The translations under genes and the position numbers were made by a program. This document shows, piece by piece, positions 4,156-42,022 of a DNA stretch of 42,022 nucleotides (the stretch's first letter is position 1; the number at the start of each line of letters is the position of its first letter). This stretch comes from a virus, in IMG/VR virus record IMGVR_UViG_3300036835_000306, positions 1-42,022 of that record, one strand, 5' to 3'. The notes beneath the pieces were generated by a model. It was not told where the DNA came from, did not search any database, and saw nothing but the letters and a program-made list of their open reading frames with translations.

Positions 4156-5482
4156 CCAGGCCGCGCACACCCCGCTCGGTGCCGGCGGTGAGGATCCCGA
4201 CGGCCTCAGCGAGCGCTCCGCCGCCTTTCGACTGAAGCAGGTTGAGGGCTTGACGCCGCGCGGCGACCGTTGCCGTTCTCCAGGCGGGCTCCTGCATAAT
4301 CCGCTTCGTCAGAACCGCGCCTGCACCCAACACAGCCGCCTCGGCGGATCCCCCATGCATCGCCCCGGTCAACGCCCCCACGCTCGCAGCGACGGAGTCT
4401 CCGAGATGGGATTTGTTGACGCCGCGCGTTTCTGCTTTTTCCAAGAGATCCCGCGCACCCTTCCACAGATGCACGCCGTAATTGGCGTCGGCGATGTCTT
4501 TGCTGCTGCCGTTGATCAACCCGCGGAGAAGGTTTGCGCCTTCCTCATACACCGCCTCGCGTGCCGGCTGAGTGGTTCCAGGCAAACGGCCCCAATTGAC
4601 GAGCTGATCCCAAAGTTGACGGTTCTTTCGCAGCGCATCGATCGACATTTGAGGGTTGGCTTTAAACCAGTCAATCAATTCCTGGTAGGCCTTCAGCTGC
4701 TGGCCGGTGCCCGGGGTTGGTTTTCCGTTCACGTAAAGCGCGCGTTGGGAGTCCTGGAGATTTTTCAGGATGGGAGCGGTGTCGAAGGTTGTTCCCTTCG
4801 GGACCTTCGCGAATGCCGCGTCGAGCGCTTTGTTGGCGTCATCCAGCTTCACGTTGAATTTTTCGAGGAGATCCTCTGCGCTTGTCGCCAGCGGCAGCTC
4901 CTTCGAAATGGGCCCCGCAATTTCCTTGGCAATGGCTTTGTCGCTCAGCCCGGCGGGACTAATTATTTTCGTTGTAGTTCGCGCCATGCCCTTCTCCAGG
5001 AGTTTCGGCACAACTTTTTCGACGGCGACGCCGGTACCTTCCTGGAGCGCGCCCTCAAGCCCGCCCTCTCCGGCCTCAAGGAGAACCTGCTGCGGGGTTG
5101 AAGGCGTTTTCCGCTGACCCGCGAAAGCCTCCAGGAGCTGATAGAGCGCATCGCCGCCGACGGCTCCGAGGGCTCCCCCGGCAACAGCACCCGGAGGTCC
5201 TCCCGGGGCTCCGATAAGGCCGCCGACGGTCGCGCCGCCGGTCCGCATAAGCGTTCGCGGGCTGGGAAGAATATCGGGGACTGCCGTGGGATCTGCGTTG
5301 GCCAGGGCCGGAGCCGATACGGTGGTCGGTGTGAGTCCGCGTTGTCCGTTTCCGGAGGTGCCGGAGAGTGGCTTGCCGTTCTCGTCGACGAGATCGGAGA
5401 TCAACGGCGCGCCGGTCTCGCTGACCAGTTGATGCGCAGGGATCAGAGGCGGCGTGCTGGACGGGACTCCACGTTGAGGCAT
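4136..5482 (-). CDS. putative DNA ejection / internal virion protein
   Basis: A 448-residue protein, last of the late operon. The middle (about 80-115) is a Gly/Ala-rich hydrophobic stretch of the kind found in podovirus ejection proteins that insert in membranes. It is flanked by helical regions rich in Ala, Lys and Glu. The position after two similar proteins matches the gp7, gp20 and gp16 trio of P22, which leave the capsid with the DNA and form the trans-envelope channel. The assignment rests on order and composition; I see no unique motif and no lysozyme domain. Confidence 0.65.
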   Translation of the reverse strand: MPQRGVPSSTPPLIPAHQLVSETGAPLISDLVDENGKPLSGTSGNGQRGLTPTTVSAPALANADPTAVPDILPSPRTLMRTGGATVGGLIGAPGGPPGAVAGGALGAVGGDALYQLLEAFAGQRKTPSTPQQVLLEAGEGGLEGALQEGTGVAVEKVVPKLLEKGMARTTTKIISPAGLSDKAIAKEIAGPISKELPLATSAEDLLEKFNVKLDDANKALDAAFAKVPKGTTFDTAPILKNLQDSQRALYVNGKPTPGTGQQLKAYQELIDWFKANPQMSIDALRKNRQLWDQLVNWGRLPGTTQPAREAVYEEGANLLRGLINGSSKDIADANYGVHLWKGARDLLEKAETRGVNKSHLGDSVAASVGALTGAMHGGSAEAAVLGAGAVLTKRIMQEPAWRTATVAARRQALNLLQSKGGGALAEAVGILTAGTERGVRGLANPKSE

Positions 5483-7087
5483 CTATTTCTCCTGGTACCC
5501 GGCCGCCTTCAGCGAGTCGATGATCTGCTGACGTGTGGCTTTCGGGTGTGCTGTGAGGTTGGCCTGGATCAGAGGCTCGGTGATGACTTTTCCGGCAGGT
5601 CCAGCCGCTGGATTAAAGCCGGGCTGACCGTACACTCCCATCTGGTTGAGCAGCGTGTCCTTCTTTCGGGCGAGGAACGGAACGACGACGTCATTGATGG
5701 CGGACTCGAACTGCTGAGGCGACAGTGAGGGATCGGTCATTGCAAATCCCATTTCGCGCGACATGTCTGTCGCTGAGCCGTAACCCAGAGCGCCCGAGAG
5801 TTCGTCGGCAAACGCGGTCACAGCCGTCTGGAAGTTCGAATAGTTCCTGTTGCCGAGCTTCAAGCCGCCTTTCACGGTGAACTGGTTGATCAGGGGAACA
5901 CTGCTGCGCTTCGCGGCGTCGGACAGGGCCAGTAGATCGGGAACTGCTGCGTTGACGTTATCGAGCGATGCCAGCTGCTGCTGGACTTTGGGATTGGACG
6001 CGAGCTTGAATCCCATCTCGAAGGCTGCAGGGTTGAAGTTCGGGTTGAGGTCTGCCGCCTTGTTGTAGATCGCAAGTTTCCTCCCAGGATCCCGCGAGTA
6101 GGCGAACAGTGCCTTAAATTGCTGAAACGTGGTTTTCCCGTAAGCAAGATCCTGAGCGATCCGAAAGTCGCCTGAACCCGCCTTGATATCTGCCGTTGTG
6201 GATGTGGTAGTGCTCGCGTCGGGTTTCACGTACGGTTTCGGATTCGAGATTTCCTTCCCTGTCGACGGGTCGTAGGTCTTTCCCGTTTTCGGATCGAAGT
6301 TGGCAAACATTGGCTTGCCGTCAGGTCCGACGATTTGTTTTTCCTGGAAGGATGTCGGGGTCGGGGCGGGAGTCTTCGCCGCGACGTACTCGCGGATCTT
6401 GGCGAGTTGTTGGTCCGGAGGCAGCTGGTCAAACTTCGGATAGAGCGTGTAAATCTCTCCGAGAATTCCAGGCTTGGCCTGCGGTGCGGGGGCCTTCTCC
6501 CCGAGCTGATAGCGGGCAAACTGTTGCAGTGGTCCATGCTGCTGCTCGAACTCGGCACGTGTTCCCGGAAAACCGAGAGTGGCCGCCTCGGATTGAGTGC
6601 CGAGGCCTGCCGGATTCTGCGGACCCTGCGAGAGCAGATCCTGTAAGCCCCCGCGTTCTGCGTTGAACGCCATGTCCATCTCGTCAGGGGTCGCGTTTGC
6701 GATACGCGTGAGCATCGCTTTGTGCTGCGCTTCGCGCTGTGACGCAGCTTTCTCGTCTGCCGTTTTCTTATCGGCGGCCGCTTTCTCCTGTTCTTGTTTC
6801 TGCTCTTTGGCTTTTGCTTCCGCCAAGCCTCGAAACCTCGTCGAGATCTCCATGTCGATCGGCGCAGCCAGCTCTGCAAACTTCGCAAGATCCCCGTCTG
6901 CGTCGAGCCAAGCTTTGGTGATTGCGGCGCGTTTTTGCTGTTCCGTGAGTGCGTCGTTGATTCTCAGTTGATCCAATTGGCCCGCGCGCGCGGCATTGGC
7001 GATGCTGATGCGTTTCTGTTGGTCGGCAAGGATTCTGTCGTCCACACTTGGACCGAGCGCAGTGAGCCATTCTTGTGCGCGTGACAT
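5483..7087 (-). CDS. putative DNA ejection / internal virion protein, coiled coil
   Basis: A 534-residue soluble helical protein. Residues about 85-135 are rich in Lys, Gln, Glu and Ala and predict a coiled coil. The rest is mixed helical with a proline-rich linker and no membrane segment. It directly abuts the genes on both sides (7088 and 5482). By order it corresponds to the middle member of the P22-like ejection set. Confidence 0.65.
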   Translation of the reverse strand: MSRAQEWLTALGPSVDDRILADQQKRISIANAARAGQLDQLRINDALTEQQKRAAITKAWLDADGDLAKFAELAAPIDMEISTRFRGLAEAKAKEQKQEQEKAAADKKTADEKAASQREAQHKAMLTRIANATPDEMDMAFNAERGGLQDLLSQGPQNPAGLGTQSEAATLGFPGTRAEFEQQHGPLQQFARYQLGEKAPAPQAKPGILGEIYTLYPKFDQLPPDQQLAKIREYVAAKTPAPTPTSFQEKQIVGPDGKPMFANFDPKTGKTYDPSTGKEISNPKPYVKPDASTTTSTTADIKAGSGDFRIAQDLAYGKTTFQQFKALFAYSRDPGRKLAIYNKAADLNPNFNPAAFEMGFKLASNPKVQQQLASLDNVNAAVPDLLALSDAAKRSSVPLINQFTVKGGLKLGNRNYSNFQTAVTAFADELSGALGYGSATDMSREMGFAMTDPSLSPQQFESAINDVVVPFLARKKDTLLNQMGVYGQPGFNPAAGPAGKVITEPLIQANLTAHPKATRQQIIDSLKAAGYQEK

Positions 7088-8209
7088 TTACGCCGCTCCT
7101 TTGAAGAAACGCGCGATCCCCGACTGTTGCGAGAGGGGGAACGACGCGCCGAATTTGCTCGGATCGCCGTAGTTTTCGAGGAACGTTTTTTGAGCGTTAC
7201 GGATCACGGTTTTCTGATCACTGCCCAGGCCGGCGAATTGTTTCGCCGCCTCGAAGTACTTCGCGACCAGAGCGTTTCTTGTCTGTTGCGCCTGATCCGG
7301 CGAGACCTGCCCGCCGCGCTCGGCCGAGTCGATATCGCGCATCGCCTGATCGAACAGGTTTTGATTTCCCTGGACCCACGTGTCGGCCTTTTCGTGCGTG
7401 TTGCCGATCCCGAAAACTTTTTTGCCGAGCAGGATCGCGCCGGCTGCGCCGAGTGCAATCTGTCCGGCCAGCGGGATCGAGCCGATCGCGCCAACGACGG
7501 CTTTACCGGCTGCCGTGGCGCCTTTAGCCACAGCTCCCAGAGGCGAGCCCGTTCCCACTGTCCCGCCGACGTTGGTCCCTGGAACACTCCACGGCACCGC
7601 CCCGCCCCCGCCGAAAAGGCTCTCGGCCAGGCCGACCCCTTTCTTAAGCATGTCCGTCAACGTGCTGGCTCGCGCGAGATCGCCGCTGGCCAGCGCGTCA
7701 TAAATCTGTTGATGGAGTTGGCCGACGTTGGCCGCTTCGTTTTGCCTGCTCGCGTTTTGCGCGTTGACGGCATTTTGTCCGATCGCCGCGACGGACTGAT
7801 TGCGATCGAAAACCTTTGACAGCTCGTTCGAGGCGTAATCCTGCGCGTAACGGAGGAGCGCTTTCTGTGTGCCACCCGAGCCGAGGGTCTGCGTTGCGGA
7901 CTTTGCCGCCAGCAGCGCCCGCTGTCCCTGATTGAGTCGAAATTGATACCCCGGATCCTGCTCGAGCAGCGCCGAAACGTCGGCGCCTGGCGTGGTGAGC
8001 TGTTTAAGGTTGGTGAGCCCCTGCGCGCCCGTGTCGGCGTACTCCTGGAGCGCATCGCGCGAGGCCGTGCCGGCGCCGGTGATGTCGGCGATCGCTTGCG
8101 TCGATCCCGACTGTGTCGCGGTTTGCGCGTTGTTGAGCGCTTTCCGGCGCTGGAGATAGTCGATCCCCGGTACGGCCGCGCTGACGATGTTGGAGAGTGA
8201 CAGAGGCAT
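7088..8209 (-). CDS. putative DNA transfer / ejection protein (P22 gp7-like position)
   Basis: A 373-residue protein. The segment LLEQDPGYQFRLNQGQ followed by a GGTQKALLRYAQDYA stretch is a signature I recognise in DNA-transfer proteins of BPP-1-like and related podoviruses. A Gly/Ala-rich hydrophobic region at about 220-265 could insert in a membrane. It is first of three ejection-type genes. Confidence 0.75.
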   Translation of the reverse strand: MPLSLSNIVSAAVPGIDYLQRRKALNNAQTATQSGSTQAIADITGAGTASRDALQEYADTGAQGLTNLKQLTTPGADVSALLEQDPGYQFRLNQGQRALLAAKSATQTLGSGGTQKALLRYAQDYASNELSKVFDRNQSVAAIGQNAVNAQNASRQNEAANVGQLHQQIYDALASGDLARASTLTDMLKKGVGLAESLFGGGGAVPWSVPGTNVGGTVGTGSPLGAVAKGATAAGKAVVGAIGSIPLAGQIALGAAGAILLGKKVFGIGNTHEKADTWVQGNQNLFDQAMRDIDSAERGGQVSPDQAQQTRNALVAKYFEAAKQFAGLGSDQKTVIRNAQKTFLENYGDPSKFGASFPLSQQSGIARFFKGAA

Positions 8210-17415: not shown

Positions 17416-18420
17416 TTAGCTGACGGTTGCTTCGGTTTCGAGCAGCTGATCGACGATGCGGATCGGAATCCCGCGGAAGAAGTTCACGCGCTTGCCGTCG
17501 ACCAGTTCGTAGGTGAGCTGTCCGCCGGTTTGCACGTCGTCGCGCCGTTGGATATCGAGCATTTCCATACACGTCCGATTCATGTAGAAAACGGGCTTCG
17601 CGACCTTCAGAGAAGGAACGCGATAGAGCGCCTTGATCATCAGCTCGGGGAGATCCGCGGCCGAGGACTTCGCGATCAGGTTGGAAATGTCGATATTGCA
17701 GATCCGGACTACATAGCGCCAATCGCGCAAGGCAATGCCGGCTTTCCACTGCCAGCGCTCCTGGTACACGCGCATGCGAGTGCCGCCGACGCCGGCCGTG
17801 ACTTCTGCGGTTTGTTCGCCGTAGTCGTCATGCTGCAGGCCTGCTTTAGAGCCTTTGGGGAAAATGCCGACGCAAGTCTGCTCGCCCCAGCACACCAGCC
17901 AGACCGAAGAGTTATCGGACTGAGAGCCCCCGCCGCTGATCACGTGCGAGGCGTTGGTCGCGCCAGAGATCGCAGAGTATCGAGCAGCGAGTCCGGTAAA
18001 TTCCTCTTGCGCTGTTCCGGTGTTTCCGTAGAACAGCGTTTGAGCCATTTCCTGATTCATTGCCTCGATAAAGGCCTGCGCTTCGGAGAGACGGAAACGG
18101 TTGACGTTCCCGTTGAGTTTGGCGAGATCGCAATCGACTTCGCTCCAGGCCTCGAGCATTCCGCATTGCTCGTCGATCTGTGCGGTTGTCGACTTGCTCG
18201 TCGCGACGCCCTGGTTAAGCAAGCGCCAGGCGACGGTAGGAAGGCCCGTCCGAACCGTGGTTCGATGTCCGGTCGGAAGGTTTCCTTCGATGAAAAGCAT
18301 GTCGTCGAGGATCTCGTTTGTCTGTCCGAGGAGCTCAACGATCGTTGCCGTTTTGCCGTTGGGATCAACGCGCTTGGCCCAATCCAAAAGGGTCAAAGCG
18401 CCGGTAGAGAGTACCGCCAT
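17416..18420 (-). CDS. major capsid protein
   Basis: A 334-residue protein. The N-terminal WAKRVDP, IVELLGQTNEILDD (27-40), EGNLPTGHRTTVRTGLP and WRLLNQGV segments are typical of major capsid proteins of BPP-1-like podoviruses. It forms the icosahedral shell with the scaffold encoded just upstream and the cement protein just downstream. AAGGA precedes the start. Residues 27-40 reappear, with 24 identical bases, in the plus-strand gene at 27914. Confidence 0.9.
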   Translation of the reverse strand: MAVLSTGALTLLDWAKRVDPNGKTATIVELLGQTNEILDDMLFIEGNLPTGHRTTVRTGLPTVAWRLLNQGVATSKSTTAQIDEQCGMLEAWSEVDCDLAKLNGNVNRFRLSEAQAFIEAMNQEMAQTLFYGNTGTAQEEFTGLAARYSAISGATNASHVISGGGSQSDNSSVWLVCWGEQTCVGIFPKGSKAGLQHDDYGEQTAEVTAGVGGTRMRVYQERWQWKAGIALRDWRYVVRICNIDISNLIAKSSAADLPELMIKALYRVPSLKVAKPVFYMNRTCMEMLDIQRRDDVQTGGQLTYELVDGKRVNFFRGIPIRIVDQLLETEATVS

Positions 18421-22373: not shown

Positions 22374-22787
22374 ATGAAAAACCTAGAGACAGACAAACAC
22401 TTTCAATTCGGCGCCGACGTCGGAAAGGCCGCGTCCGAGGAGTGGACACGGATCGAAAACGGCACCTCGGACAACCTCGGGTTGATCCCTTCCCCTAAAA
22501 CGCCGATGTCGCTGAGAGACCGGCAGTTGTTCAAAGCCGGCTTTACGCTCGGGCTGCGACGCCGGCGTGATGTTGTTGCCTTGCTGCGCCGTGTACTTGA
22601 TCCCGTCGACCATGTTGATCCAGTTTTGAAACTTCTGAATCAGCGGATCCACCTGCGCGGACGCCTGGACCGGCACGAGCGCGACGAGTGCCGCACCCAA
22701 AACGAACGAGAGACCGAAACGCTTGCTCTTGGTAAGTGTTTTCACGGAATCCTCCTTGATTTCGATGCGGTGTTACCTACTACGTGA
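22374..22787 (+). CDS. plus-strand gene overlapping a convergent signal-peptide gene
   Basis: A 137-residue reading frame. The first ~65 residues look like real coding sequence (acidic, then AGFTLGL), but the second half is the antisense of the convergent gene at 22383-22745 and rich in Arg, Asp and His. It starts 6 nt after TGCTAACGT, an extended -10 box, with no ribosome-binding site. I read it as a gene that lost its own stop codon by fusion to its neighbour, or an N-terminal gene fragment. Confidence 0.45.
   Translation: MKNLETDKHFQFGADVGKAASEEWTRIENGTSDNLGLIPSPKTPMSLRDRQLFKAGFTLGLRRRRDVVALLRRVLDPVDHVDPVLKLLNQRIHLRGRLDRHERDECRTQNERETETLALGKCFHGILLDFDAVLPTT
22383..22745 (-). CDS. small exported protein (Sec signal peptide), C-terminus possibly chimeric
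   Basis: A 120-residue frame starting at GTG after a strong AAGGAGG. Residues 1-30 form a clear Sec signal peptide (KSKR, a LSFVLGAALVALV core, ASA cleavage site before QVDP). The following ~30 residues (IQKFQNWINMVDGIKYTAQQ) look natural; from about residue 65 on, the sequence is antisense to the plus-strand gene and Arg-rich. A periplasmic protein of unknown role in the late operon. Confidence 0.6.
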   Translation of the reverse strand: MKTLTKSKRFGLSFVLGAALVALVPVQASAQVDPLIQKFQNWINMVDGIKYTAQQGNNITPASQPERKAGFEQLPVSQRHRRFRGRDQPEVVRGAVFDPCPLLGRGLSDVGAELKVFVCL

Positions 22788-27886: not shown

Positions 27887-27906
27887 AGTGTAAACCGGTT
27901 TACACT
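27887..27906. promoter_or_regulatory. 20-bp perfect palindrome overlapping a -10 box
   Basis: AGTGTAAACCGGTTTACACT is fully self-complementary. Its last six bases, TACACT, act as a -10 box 7 nt before the GTG at 27914. The GTAAACCGGTTTAC core has the form of LacI-family operators. No LacI-type gene is in the window, so a host regulator could bind. Confidence 0.6.
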
Positions 27907-27913
27907 CGGCCAC

Positions 27914-28612
27914 GTGAGTCGACGATCGAAACGCCGAGCCCATCGCCGACGCTTGGCGCAGCAGCTCAAGCAATGGCTCACCGGTGAGGATCCGCGCTTT
28001 GTCCGCTTCGATATCGTGGGACTGCGGCCGCGCTTTGCCGATGTCTTCGAGCAGATGATCAGCCGACAGGTGCCGGACATCGTGGAGCTGCTCAGCCAGA
28101 CAAACGAGATCCTCGACGACGTTCCTGTACACTTTGGCGTCGACACGGCGCACGGCCGCGATCGTTCCTCGGTTTGGTGGATAGGGCCCGACGGTACCGT
28201 GCACCACTCGGGAGGCCTGGATGATGGAACGCCGGAAATTTTTAACGAACTTGATCGGGCTCTCAACGGCCGCACTCTTGGCGCCGGAGGAGATCCTCGA
28301 TCGTTTGACCTGGCGCCCGAAACTGATCTCGATCCCGGCGCCGGCGATCGACCCGTGGGAACAGATCGACCGGATGGAAATTCGGTTTACCCGGCGCATG
28401 GGTTTGCCGCCGCCGCAGTGGATACGCTTGAACGCGGGAGTGGAGCCTCTGAGGGTTTTCGCGATCATCGAGACCACGCCGATCGGCCTCTACCGTCGCA
28501 GAATGGGACTCACGCAGGAGGAATTCGCGGCCCGCCACCCCGGCGCCGTCGAGCTTGGAAAACACCTCGTCGCGTTGAAGATCGGAAAGCACGGACCGAT
28601 CACGCGCTATGA
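27914..28612 (+). CDS. plus-strand gene containing a coat-protein-like segment
   Basis: A frame of 232 residues. Residues 1-25 are very basic (MSRRSKRRAHRRR). Residues 56-69, IVELLSQTNEILDD, match residues 27-40 of the major capsid protein at 13 of 14 positions, and the DNA matches at 38 of 42 bases, 24 of them contiguous. Up to about residue 105 it looks coding; beyond that it overlaps the next gene in another frame and becomes Arg, Gly and Pro-rich. Leaderless start under a palindromic operator. Function unknown; interference with capsid assembly or capsid targeting is a testable guess. Confidence 0.5.
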   Translation: MSRRSKRRAHRRRLAQQLKQWLTGEDPRFVRFDIVGLRPRFADVFEQMISRQVPDIVELLSQTNEILDDVPVHFGVDTAHGRDRSSVWWIGPDGTVHHSGGLDDGTPEIFNELDRALNGRTLGAGGDPRSFDLAPETDLDPGAGDRPVGTDRPDGNSVYPAHGFAAAAVDTLERGSGASEGFRDHRDHADRPLPSQNGTHAGGIRGPPPRRRRAWKTPRRVEDRKARTDHAL

Positions 28613-28667
28613 CAGCGAACACTCGCCGTTCACGGTGGAGTACCCAGTGACCCAGTGGCCACGCTGA
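28221..28667 (+). CDS. Tat-signal-like hypothetical protein
   Basis: A 148-residue protein. The N-terminus ERRKFLTNLIGLSTAALLA is like a twin-arginine signal (RRxFL, then a hydrophobic stretch). The remainder is soluble, with PWEQIDRMEIRFTRR and LYRRRMGLTQEEFAARHPGA segments. GGGAGG precedes the ATG. It overlaps the 3' part of the preceding gene in a different frame. Small phage proteins with RRKFL starts exist; whether they are exported is unclear. Confidence 0.68.
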   Translation: MMERRKFLTNLIGLSTAALLAPEEILDRLTWRPKLISIPAPAIDPWEQIDRMEIRFTRRMGLPPPQWIRLNAGVEPLRVFAIIETTPIGLYRRRMGLTQEEFAARHPGAVELGKHLVALKIGKHGPITRYDSEHSPFTVEYPVTQWPR

Positions 28668-28948
28668 CGCCCGCCTGCCACCACTTCGTTAGAGTCACCC
28701 ACCGCGAGCCGATGCTCAACCCGGTTGACGACGAGGGTGTGTACCACCATCCGACGTGCAACTGTTGCCACTTCGAGGCCGCGCCGATATCGACCGAGCA
28801 CCTCGGGTTTCTGTGCATGCCGTGTTTCATGGGAAGGCACGACGAGATCGTCGCGCTCGAGCGCATGTTGTATCTCGATCGGCCGGTACCGGCGCGCGAT
28901 GGCTGTTTGTGGTTTGCTTTCGTGGACTTCTATATCCGCAGCGAGTAG
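28655..28948 (+). CDS. small cysteine-rich protein
   Basis: A 97-residue protein starting at GTG, overlapping the previous gene by 13 bases. CNCC at about 35-38 and CMPC at 54-57 form a probable zinc site. The C-terminal half is helical and aromatic. Function unknown. Its stop abuts the stop of the convergent gene. Confidence 0.65.
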   Translation: MATLTPACHHFVRVTHREPMLNPVDDEGVYHHPTCNCCHFEAAPISTEHLGFLCMPCFMGRHDEIVALERMLYLDRPVPARDGCLWFAFVDFYIRSE

Positions 28949-29155
28949 CTACTCGACGTCGAACGGTTGAGGAACTCGTGGCCCGCCCAGGTAGTGCGAT
29001 GCTGTCGGAACGCGGCCCGTTTTCACATCCTCGGCGTGTTGCTCGAGCAGCTCCGGCCGTTTGGCGGTAGGCGTCCCGATCGCACAGCAATCAATACACA
29101 GCCCGCAGACCGAACAGCTCACCAACCTGGACGAAAGGCACTTGTCACAGATCAC
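28949..29155 (-). CDS. small zinc-binding protein with clustered cysteines
   Basis: A 68-residue protein from the GTG at 29155. It contains CDKC at about 3-6 and a dense CSVCGLCIDCC cluster at 14-24, which could bind one or two zinc ions. The start lies inside the end of the upstream gene; an in-frame ATG at 29224 would add 23 residues. Function unknown. Confidence 0.6.
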   Translation of the reverse strand: MICDKCLSSRLVSCSVCGLCIDCCAIGTPTAKRPELLEQHAEDVKTGRVPTASHYLGGPRVPQPFDVE

Positions 29156-30041
29156 GGCGCCCTCGATACGGTTTGAAGTACTGCACCCGATCGAGAACCT
29201 GGAAGGAGACAGGAGGATCGACACGATACACGAGATGTGTCTCGCCGGCGCCGTCGACCGCGTGGCAGATCCGGAAACTCACGTGATGCGACGTGATCAT
29301 CGCCGCGTCGGGAGGAATGCCTCCCCGCAGGTTCCACGCCGACAGCTTCGGCCGATCGGCGACGCGCAGGTGATAGTCCTTCTCGCAGTCCTGCTTTTCC
29401 CGTGGCAGCCAGCCGACCAGGTTCGGGGTTTCGCCCATCCGGACTTCACGCCACACGAGCTCGTTCTGTCGATCGCGCCAACGCTCCATTGTTTCCGGCC
29501 TGACTGCGATCGTAACCGTCCCGCCCGGGTGTTGCGGCAGCCAGGACAACCAGGTGTAGAGATCGTGCACCAGTTGCTCGGCCTGCAGCTGCGCGCGTCG
29601 CTCGCTCGCTCGAGCCTGGCGCTCGCCATCGCCGGCGGGCCCGATGATCGTTACGATCTCCTGGATCCGGAGGAGATCCTCTTTCGTGGCAGCCGCCGGC
29701 GTCTCAGTGACGCGCGCCTCGATATCTATCTTTTCTTGCTGCAGAGCTATAAGCGCTATGTACTCGTCCCCGGTCACATCCACGCCGCGCCATTGGTAAC
29801 GACGTCCGTGAGGGTCGATCCGGATCAGCGCATCGAGCCGATCCGATGTCACGCGATCGACGGCGCGTTGCGCCTCACGCAGCTGCTCGATAGTGACCCT
29901 TTCGAAGGCCTCGGCCTCACGCTGTCGTCTGGCGATCGCCGTCCCGGAGAGCAGCGGACGCCCGTTCAAATGAGGGGAAGAAACGAGACCACCACTCAAA
30001 TGAGTGGTATTCCCCCCTGACGAGGAGGGGACGCCGAACAC
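29145..30041 (-). CDS. hypothetical protein, helical then beta-rich
   Basis: A 298-residue protein. Residues about 35-160 are helical and charged (REAEAFERVTIEQLREAQ), followed by a Trp-rich mixed region. Not recognised. The GTG start lies exactly 7 nt after TACGAT with no ribosome-binding site, and the first 50 nt of the message contain two strong hairpins, so expression may be structure-controlled. Confidence 0.65.
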   Translation of the reverse strand: MFGVPSSSGGNTTHLSGGLVSSPHLNGRPLLSGTAIARRQREAEAFERVTIEQLREAQRAVDRVTSDRLDALIRIDPHGRRYQWRGVDVTGDEYIALIALQQEKIDIEARVTETPAAATKEDLLRIQEIVTIIGPAGDGERQARASERRAQLQAEQLVHDLYTWLSWLPQHPGGTVTIAVRPETMERWRDRQNELVWREVRMGETPNLVGWLPREKQDCEKDYHLRVADRPKLSAWNLRGGIPPDAAMITSHHVSFRICHAVDGAGETHLVYRVDPPVSFQVLDRVQYFKPYRGRRDL

Positions 30042-30225
30042 TTATCAGATCGTAACTGTTTGAGGCTCTCAACGATGGGGCGTGCACGCCCCAACCTGGC
30101 GTAATAGAACACGCCACCAAGTCGGGTGTTTTCACCCGACTTTCATGCACGAAACCTGCATTTTTATGCACGCCGGCGTCGATCCGATGCAAGGCAAGTT
30201 GAGTATCAGAGTACTCAACTCCTAT
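30042..30225. other. intergenic cluster of strong palindromes and hairpins
   Basis: No gene is seen. Four dyads lie in series: an 18-bp perfect palindrome at 30076-30093, arms TGGCGT/ACGCCA at 30097-30116, a 10-bp stem with TTTT loop at 30119-30142, and a 9-bp stem with a 6-nt loop at 30197-30220. A shorter one is at 30157-30170, and two more (29991-30008, 30011-30031) continue into the adjacent gene. All have different sequences. Possible roles: replication origin, recombination site or structured RNA. Confidence 0.6.
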
Positions 30226-30578: not shown

Positions 30579-31238
30579 ATGCAGATGGAGCAGCAGGAAG
30601 CAGCGAAACGCGTCGCACTTTACGCCCGAGTTTCAACAAAGCAACACGGCCAGGATCCAGAGACCCAGCTCCAACCGATGCGCGACTACATCCGAGCGCG
30701 CAATTTTCACGTTTTCCGCGAATACGTCGACGTCGGATATAGCGGCGCAAAGGAGCGCCGGCCGCAGCTCGATCGAATGATGCACGACGCGAAGACCGGG
30801 AAACTCGACGCTGTGATCGTGTGGCGTTTCGATCGCTTCGCGCGCAGCGTCTCGCACCTGCTCCGAGCCCTCGAAGATTTCCGGAAATGGGGAATTAACT
30901 TTGTAAGCCTCACCGAGGCGATCGACACCTCGACGGCCGTCGGGAAAATGATCTTTACCGTCCTCGGAGCTGTCGCCGAGCTGGAGCGCTCGTTGATCCA
31001 GGAGCGCGTACAGGCCGGCGTCGATCGAGCGAAAAGAGAGGGGAAAAAGATCGGCCGGCCTCGAGTGCTCGTCGACGAGGAGCGCGTCTACGAACTACAT
31101 CGAGCCGGCCAGAGTGTGCGAGCCATTGCCAGGACTACGGGAATCGCCCGAGGAACGGTTCAGGCGATCGCGACCAGGTGGACAGAGAAAAAACGCCTCG
31201 AAAGCCCGGCCAAAACCCCTACGCCGATTGAAAACTAA
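30579..31238 (+). CDS. serine recombinase (resolvase/invertase family)
   Basis: A 219-residue protein of the usual small-resolvase length. The catalytic serine is Ser19 in YARVSTKQ; the VWRFDRFARS segment supplies the arginines; the LTEAIDTSTAVGKM region and a long E helix follow. The C-terminal ~45 residues form a helix-turn-helix (GQSVRAIARTTGIARGTVQAIA). It catalyses site-specific inversion or resolution. No second integration site is obvious; candidate targets are the nearby palindromes. It is a monocistronic plus-strand gene in an accessory region that also faces a tyrosine integrase 2.5 kb away. Confidence 0.9.
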   Translation: MQMEQQEAAKRVALYARVSTKQHGQDPETQLQPMRDYIRARNFHVFREYVDVGYSGAKERRPQLDRMMHDAKTGKLDAVIVWRFDRFARSVSHLLRALEDFRKWGINFVSLTEAIDTSTAVGKMIFTVLGAVAELERSLIQERVQAGVDRAKREGKKIGRPRVLVDEERVYELHRAGQSVRAIARTTGIARGTVQAIATRWTEKKRLESPAKTPTPIEN

Positions 31239-33645: not shown

Positions 33646-34815
33646 CTATTTACCCGCATCCAATGAATACAACCGCTCCAGCTCCTCAACCGACTGGTCC
33701 TGTTTTGGTCCTAGTCCAGATTCGAAAGCGAACATGAGCTGACGCAGTGATTCCGACTCCGCCTGCTGCGTCTCGAGGATCCGCCGAGCCGCCCAGCCTG
33801 GAACGAAATGCGCGTAGCGCATGGTCGTGTGGATGTCAGAGTGGCCGGCAAGCTCTTGCACGACCCCAGGATCGATTCCCCGGGACATCCACTGGGTTAT
33901 TCTGAAGTGACGAAAGCTCTCCGGGTGTACATCCAGGCCTGTTCTCTCACGCGCTTTCGAAAACGCGCCGCGTGTATCCTTCACGCGTTTGAGAGTCGTG
34001 TCCCGAATGAATACGTGCGGATCGTCCGTCACGTGCGGCAACATCCCGAGCAGGTCCTTGCAGAAATCTGACATCGGGATGTGCCGCGCCTTCTTGGTCT
34101 TTGCGATACCAGCCGGGACCGTCACAATCCGAGACTCCAGGCCGATCGTGCGCCAGGTGAGGCGCAGCCCTTCCTCGGTCCGGATTGCCGTTTCCCCCAA
34201 AAAACCGGCATACGCGCCGACTGCCAAATCGATGCTCAAGAGCGCCGCGACGAAAGCGCGCTCCTGAGCCAGAGTCATGATGAAGAGATCACGCTCGGCC
34301 TCCTCATAGCTGTCGAGCCCAAACAGCGGATTTGGGCCGGGCAACAACTCCGCCTCGATCGCACAACTCAACATGGAGCTTAAAACCGCCATGCCGCGAT
34401 TGATCGTCGCCAAAGCCAGGCCGGATGGACGCGAGGCGCGGTAGCGCAGCGCCTCCGCGCGGGTTATCGACGTGAGGGGCAACTCACCGAGGACCGGCAA
34501 GATGTTGCCCAACTGAATGCGGTGAAAATCGGGCCGCCGGTTCCGGCGCTGCATTTCGGCCAGAAACATCGGGGCGTATTCGTTCAGGGTGAGCACGCGG
34601 GCAGGGGCGGGTGGAGGCTCTTGTCTCTCGAGCGAGAGCTTGGCTTTCAACTCCCGCCAGGTTCCGTCGGCGATGGCGGCTTCTATCCGTGCGCGCATCT
34701 GACGGGCAAGCGTAAGATTGGGAAACGGGCGCCGGAAGCGCGTGCCGTCGGGCCAGTACTTGGACAGCTCTAGCCGGCCACGGCGCTTCAGGATGTTGCG
34801 ATCTTCATTCGACAT
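33646..34815 (-). CDS. int: tyrosine-type site-specific integrase
   Basis: A 389-residue protein (an upstream start at 34857 would give 403). The catalytic region has the box I arginine in ETAIRTEEGLRLTW, the lysine in TKKARHIPM, an ESFRHFRITQW box in place of the usual HDLRH, and LAGHSDIHTTMRYAH with the nucleophilic tyrosine. The N-terminal ~60 residues look like an AP2-like arm-binding domain, then a SAM-like core-binding domain. It integrates the phage at the tRNA-Leu(CAG) site whose copy is adjacent. GAGAGG precedes the chosen ATG. Confidence 0.92.
   Translation of the reverse strand: MSNEDRNILKRRGRLELSKYWPDGTRFRRPFPNLTLARQMRARIEAAIADGTWRELKAKLSLERQEPPPAPARVLTLNEYAPMFLAEMQRRNRRPDFHRIQLGNILPVLGELPLTSITRAEALRYRASRPSGLALATINRGMAVLSSMLSCAIEAELLPGPNPLFGLDSYEEAERDLFIMTLAQERAFVAALLSIDLAVGAYAGFLGETAIRTEEGLRLTWRTIGLESRIVTVPAGIAKTKKARHIPMSDFCKDLLGMLPHVTDDPHVFIRDTTLKRVKDTRGAFSKARERTGLDVHPESFRHFRITQWMSRGIDPGVVQELAGHSDIHTTMRYAHFVPGWAARRILETQQAESESLRQLMFAFESGLGPKQDQSVEELERLYSLDAGK
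33695..33712. repeat. integrase arm-type repeat, right copy
   Basis: Identical to the 18-mer at 33449-33466, in the same orientation, and inside the last codons of the integrase gene (PKQDQ). It is followed by a diverged continuation (AGTCC instead of GTTTG). Confidence 0.65.
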
Positions 34816-35065
34816 CAACAATCCTCTCTGCTGACGCTGGTATTGGGCGGCGGTCATTATGCCAGCGCGGGAGACGCGCCCTTAACATTTCTAAGTCTTC
34901 GAGTTTGTAGGTGCGGCGGCCGTGGAATTCGTAGCAGGGAAGCAGGCCCGCGTCGGTGTCTTCGCGCAGCGTGTCGGGGCTGATGTCCAGATATTGCGCG
35001 GCGGCTTTCAACCCGAACAGCGCCTTGTTGGGCACCTGGATCAACGCAATCTGTTTTCCCATCAT
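34805..35065 (-). CDS. excisionase-like helix-turn-helix protein
   Basis: An 86-residue protein. FGLKAAAQYLDISPDTLRE, then GLLPCYEFHGRRTYKLEDLE and a short helix form the MerR/AlpA-type winged helix typical of excisionases and recombination directionality factors. It overlaps the integrase start by 11 bases, supporting a shared role in excision. The start ATGATG overlaps the end of a possible 21-codon leader peptide. Confidence 0.8.
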   Translation of the reverse strand: MMGKQIALIQVPNKALFGLKAAAQYLDISPDTLREDTDAGLLPCYEFHGRRTYKLEDLEMLRARLPRWHNDRRPIPASAERIVDVE

Positions 35066-41731: not shown

Positions 41732-41982
41732 GCCTGCCCGCTGCGTTCCACTGCCGTGATTGCGGACTCGCGTGTAAATCCGAGGCCGGAGTCGCCCGTC
41801 ACAAGCGCTCCTGCAAGGCCGCGCCTCCACCACTGAAACGTCCGGGCCCCGCCGCGCCCCTGCCGCGCGTGCGTTGTATGACCTGCGCGGAAACCTTTGC
41901 CACGGCCCAGCAGTTGGGCCAACACCGAACCTTGAAACACTTCGGGGAGATCAGCCTCACCCGGTGCACGTTGACGACATGA
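41728..41982 (+). CDS. double C2H2/C2HC zinc-finger protein
   Basis: An 84-residue protein with two classical fingers. Finger 1 is C-x2-C-x12-H-x3-C (FHCRDCGLACKSEAGVARHK). Finger 2 is C-x2-C-x12-H-x4-H (VRCMTCAETF and QLGQHRTLKHF). Such fingers are rare in prokaryotes and bind DNA or protein. GTG start overlaps the previous stop; its own stop overlaps the J-domain gene start once the contig is closed. Confidence 0.78.
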   Translation: MSLPAAFHCRDCGLACKSEAGVARHKRSCKAAPPPLKRPGPAAPLPRVRCMTCAETFATAQQLGQHRTLKHFGEISLTRCTLTT

Positions 41983-42022
41983 GCGAACGCGATCCCATTA
42001 CTGCCTATCCGCTCTATTGGCC
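41896..42022. repeat. terminal direct repeat, right copy (contig closure)
   Basis: Identical to positions 1-127; see the left copy. The start of the J-domain gene is duplicated here and cut off by the contig end. Confidence 0.9.

Follow-up and report, generated by a model that had tools for sequence, protein, structure and literature searches.

The stretch of viral DNA analyzed here (IMG/VR record IMGVR_UViG_3300036835_000306, all 42,022 nucleotides, hereafter the window) belongs to a podovirus whose major capsid protein is of the genuine epsilon15 gp7/BPP-1 type: the 334-residue product of the minus-strand gene at 17416-18420 scores 443 bits against Pfam PF20911 (GP7) and 355 bits against NCBIfam NF045672, and it matches PDB entries 3j4u (E = 1.3e-89) and 3j40. 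Positions 1-127 of the window are repeated exactly at 41896-42022, an overlap that marks the assembled contig as circular or terminally redundant. SPAdes usually works up to a k of 127, and the contig is probably circular, closed at the assembler's k. Genes for a serine resolvase and a tyrosine integrase lie at 30579-31238 and 33646-34857, so that the phage is probably temperate.

The locus of interest is a run of small plus-strand frames. The first of these, P1, is an orphan that starts with GTG at 27914 and stays open to 28612, which would give 232 residues if translated; the first-pass annotation had ended it at 28220, where there is no in-frame stop. From about codon 103 onward it overprints, in another frame, the gene P2 (28221-28667, plus strand; 148 residues), which is preceded at 5 nt from the ATG by a good Shine-Dalgarno sequence, GGGAGG, and has a codon usage like that of the phage's other genes. 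The N terminus of P2 carries an RRxFL stretch that looks Tat-like by eye. No homologues of P2 were found in phages; IMG/VR gave only the sister contig described below, and relatives gave weak matches only. A possible third gene of the run, encoding 97 cysteine- and histidine-rich residues (28655-28948, plus strand), has a weak coding signal. Upstream of P1, a perfect 20-bp palindrome (AGTGTAAACCGGTTTACACT, 27887-27906) ends 7 nt before the GTG; it has no second copy in the window and is presumably similar to the operators of the LacI family. Another perfect palindrome, of 18 bp (TGGGGCGTGCACGCCCCA, 30076-30093), lies just upstream of the minus-strand gene at 29145-30041. Of the promoter and operator that the earlier proposal gave P1, the operator-like palindrome is real, and a simple sigma-70 scan of the plus strand gave no promoter; a Shine-Dalgarno sequence before the GTG was likewise not found. 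Codons 25-69 of P1 look coding, with a good codon signal confined to 27986-28120 and fading after 28120. AlphaFold models built from the single sequences of P1 and P2 (mean pLDDT, 56 and 37) were too poor to use, and the locus matched no Rfam element and no PADLOC system.

In a self-BLAST of the window, positions 28079-28120 of P1 match the capsid gene at 18342-18301 (minus strand) with 38 of 42 bases identical, both in sense and in frame, and bases 28097-28120 form an exact 24-base run with the reverse complement of 18301-18324. At the protein level, P1 residues 56-69 (IVELLSQTNEILDD) agree at 13 of 14 positions with coat protein residues 27-40 (IVELLGQTNEILDD, encoded at 18301-18342 on the minus strand), which, judging from homology to the BPP-1 and epsilon15 structures, are probably part of the N-arm (PMC5701804). 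The match has an E value of 1.7e-8, and the sole stronger internal repeat of the whole window is the 127-bp end overlap. Comparison with the coat genes of two relatives extends it upstream to about 28068 (87% identity for locus L108 and 85% for L110), so that the coat-gene-derived patch as a whole (VPDIVELLSQTNEILDD, 28068-28120, plus strand) measures about 53 bp, with the 42-bp self match as its core. Both edges are sharp, DNA identity ending at 28120 and at about 28068. Beyond the patch, P1 resembles the coat no more than shuffled sequence does: against the coat profile, 327 of 3,000 shuffles do as well as the two flanks, and in a separate test the same was true of 365 of 1,000 shuffles for the upstream flank and 478 of 1,000 for the downstream one. 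The patch falls within the stretch of P1 that has the best codon score (0.5-0.6, as in real genes), and its placement in sense and in frame would be expected by chance in 1 case out of 6. Our recomputation thus reproduced the residue and base counts of the first-pass annotation, including the contiguous run and the shared sense frame, and bore out its statement that the rest of P1 differs from the coat protein.

The same annotation had the segment copied from the phage's own coat protein, and here the match stands while the source is less certain. The best match to the 42-bp core is indeed the window's own coat gene (38/42), followed by that of L108 (37/42), whose coat protein is about 75% identical to the window's; the patch therefore differs from these two genes at 4 and 5 positions of 42, respectively, and they differ from each other at 6. 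With two coat genes almost equally close, the phage's own gene is not established as the donor, which could, on these sequences, be any close coat gene or one from the phage's own ancestor. The coat genes compared came from 80 IMG/VR loci and from 27 loci of bacterial genomes, and terminase-bearing loci were included as well.

A sister contig (IMGVR_UViG_3300036759_000102) matches the window at 99.8-100% identity around the locus and has the same coat gene sequence throughout the compared stretch, 17440-18420. It lacks 244 bp of the window (27915-28158, a placement ambiguous by 2 bp because CG stands at both junctions), and with them the start codon of P1, codons 1-81, and the patch. The rest of the locus is undamaged: the palindrome at 27887-27906 is kept and P2 is 100% identical. 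The junction in the sister reads GGCCACG/CGATCG, where the slash marks the join, with 2 bp of microhomology. That a near-identical relative does without the start, the patch, and 81 codons indicates that the P1 frame is dispensable, and it speaks against a conserved coat decoy. The direction of the change can be argued both ways from the sequence. A motif resembling one in the large terminase (TerL), GVDTAHG/RDRS, lies across the junction (slash) and would favor a deletion in the sister; the fading of the codon signal close to that point would favor an insertion in the window. We tentatively prefer the deletion. The two contigs also differ elsewhere: about 712 bp of the sister are absent from the window (window 22553-22555 versus L001:3929-4640), which truncates a minus-strand gene with a signal-like N terminus to a stub at 22383-22745, so that more than one such indel separates them.

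The first-pass annotation had suggested searching for the coat-like segment together with its carrier, and these searches returned coat genes and no homologue of P1. None was found by tblastn in phage or plasmid records, when IMG/VR and GTDB contigs were scanned with peptides and motifs, or in the complete records of two bacterial genomes and of 21 virus contigs from relatives; apart from weak, unrelated matches in phages, the searches yielded coat genes only. Weak matches of P1 to DNA polymerases were judged to be due to chance. With epsilon15 gp7 and the BPP-1 capsid protein (PF20911, NF045672, PDB 3j40 and 3j4u), P1 shares similarity in the N-terminal part of the coat family, residues 52-75 matching profile positions 5-28; unlike them, it covers only these 24 of 313 positions and stays below the family cutoffs (18.2 versus 27 bits for Pfam and 14.2 versus 75 bits for NCBIfam). 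Coat similarity beyond the N-arm, in the E-loop, P, or A domains, was not found in P1. A diverged coat paralogue was rejected as an identity for P1, its flanks matching the coat no better than shuffles.

Among the other origins that might be proposed for the patch, chance or convergent similarity is hardly credible. Nothing was found in its favor, and the E value and exact run uphold the earlier judgment that chance is very unlikely; P1 also scores highest of all non-coat open reading frames (ORFs) against the coat profile (19.6 bits; first scan, about 19,000 ORFs). It is very unlikely, too, that a sequencing, amplification, or assembly chimera put coat sequence into the contig. Such an artifact would suit a metagenomic contig whose sister lacks the stretch, but the patch and the contig's single coat gene disagree at 4 of 42 bases, and the contig closes on itself exactly over 127 bp, which we infer to be the largest SPAdes k and at which a 42- to 53-bp repeat should not join assembly paths. 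P1 might also be the degenerate remnant of a foreign TerL-coat module, left by deletions and built up through successive recombinations, with TerL-like sequence at residues 9-50 and 70-90 and the coat piece between them. In keeping with this, P1 is the top-scoring non-TerL ORF of 18,997 against the TerL profile once TerL fragments are set aside (10.1 bits, spanning the linker and the first nuclease strand), a PHROG terminase family matches it at E = 0.21, and its GVDTAHG/RDRS shares the pattern GVDxxHGRD with GVDMSHGRDIS of the MissDaisy TerL, to which the locus has a 28-bp DNA match (E = 0.1). The likeness is marginal, however: 1 in 2,000 shuffles of P1 scores higher, for which reason we treat it as a lead only, and removal of the patch lowers the TerL score, a result on which we also rejected the idea that 14 residues were simply inserted into a TerL-like frame. 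P1 had no Pfam terminase match and nothing like the family-level score over ATPase and nuclease domains that the phage's own TerL attains (589 bits to the TerL profile), and the resemblance lies at the protein level, self-BLAST detecting no DNA similarity between P1 and that TerL. We regard a remnant of this kind as unlikely.

Unlikely as well is a functional coat mimic, in which P1, alone or with P2, would show the coat N-arm peptide as a decoy, whether by poisoning the assembly of superinfecting relatives, by competing for a coat partner, or by soaking up a host defense sensor that recognizes capsid protein. Several observations point this way and count against a mere scar. The patch is in sense and in frame, within the part of P1 that has the best coding signal. 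P2 residues 55-77 weakly resemble a segment of the coat E-loop (RxTxRxGLPxxxWxxLNxGVxP; 7.7 bits), a score that none of 3,000 shuffles reached. In addition, an independent contig (L264; IMGVR_UViG_3300050821_004831) has a small non-coat ORF with the same coat N-arm segment (SERIREIAEMLSQTNEILDDLTFID; 6463-6765, reverse complement; 101 residues with a Tat-signal-like start; 19.5 bits), with a shortened coat homologue of 233 residues upstream of it (5322-6020, reverse complement; 77 bits) and a full coat gene downstream, at 7812. Precedents exist, though of different make: SaPIbov5 uses Ccm, a homologue of the coat protein, to redirect capsids (PMC8569155), Tab is a prophage protein that blocks assembly (PMC10884400), and CapRel senses a coat protein (PMC9712102). 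Against a mimic stand the near-identical sister without P1, the lack of detectable homologues, promoter, or ribosome site for P1, and the rarity of the arrangement: among about 36,000 ORFs from 302 loci, coat-like pieces in non-coat ORFs occurred only in P1 and in L264. A motif scan of IMG/VR for QTNEILDD without a following Met gave 89 stretches, and of the 80 read, 79 were ordinary coat genes and the other was L264; a second motif scan gave three matches, all unrelated. The L264 ORF and the E-loop-like stretch of P2 keep the decoy idea alive at low odds, and we see a slim chance that some epsilon15-type phages carry small accessory proteins, such as P1 and the L264 ORF, that show the coat N-arm helix as decoys against competitors' assembly or coat-sensing defenses.

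Our preferred reading, to which we assign a probability of roughly two in three, is that the patch is a real and recent piece of coat gene in a dispensable orphan frame, most likely a scar of recombination. On this view, recombination of the short-patch or illegitimate kind would have copied some 53 bp of a major capsid gene of epsilon15 type, belonging either to a close relative or to an ancestor of the phage itself, into a small orphan accessory frame on the plus strand, one that may also faintly resemble the linker and first nuclease strand of the large terminase, and the piece would have landed in sense and in frame by happenstance. The carrier appears not to have been maintained: the sister lacks the start and 81 codons across a junction with 2-bp microhomology, perhaps through deletion, and the window's frame has neither a ribosome site nor a proper stop, which suggests that P1 has no function. 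The locus combines donor similarity with sharp edges, unrelated flanks, and absence from a close relative, as a short-patch scar should, the absence extending to the whole 244 bp rather than to the patch alone. Among the three options offered by the first-pass annotation, a recent recombination scar is accordingly the best supported, given the sister without the patch, the start, and 81 codons, which is the kind of relative that the annotation itself had named as counting against its reading; its coat decoy lost ground, the analysis having found no carrier homologue, no promoter or ribosome site, and no proper gene end. Events of this type seem to be uncommon but ordinary. A survey of 127 related loci (1.9 Mb) gave 15 entries, about 11 of them distinct, for short dispersed repeats with 85% identity or more, roughly one per 170 kb. 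One 47-bp repeat, in locus L079, joins two different ORFs that have no connection with each other and keeps its sense and frame in both, the only clear case among the repeats examined.

Recombination between diverged phage DNAs is established, and P1 resembles the short-patch or illegitimate events of phage mosaicism in that a small piece has moved without regard to gene borders, leaving sharp edges and an orphan product; it departs from typical mosaicism in that a core structural gene was the source of the piece, which keeps its sense and reading frame within an accessory frame (PMC2327257). With SaPIbov5 Ccm it shares a coat-derived protein encoded away from the main coat gene, but Ccm is a full coat homologue with an HK97 fold that enters capsids, whereas P1 contains only some 17 residues of coat sequence and lacks the coat fold (PMC8569155). 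If the decoy idea were right, P1 would be like Tab in acting from a prophage on the virion assembly of invaders; Tab, however, is known to be expressed, has been tested, and has the tail tape measure as its target, whereas P1 is known here from its sequence alone and has no PADLOC match (PMC10884400).

Were the decoy idea true, coat-derived peptides would be a new and simple weapon in phage competition. The present evidence favors the ordinary reading, and as a recombination scar the locus would illustrate cleanly how part of an essential structural gene can end up in frame within an accessory ORF, the sister phage being evidence that loss of the host frame is possible.
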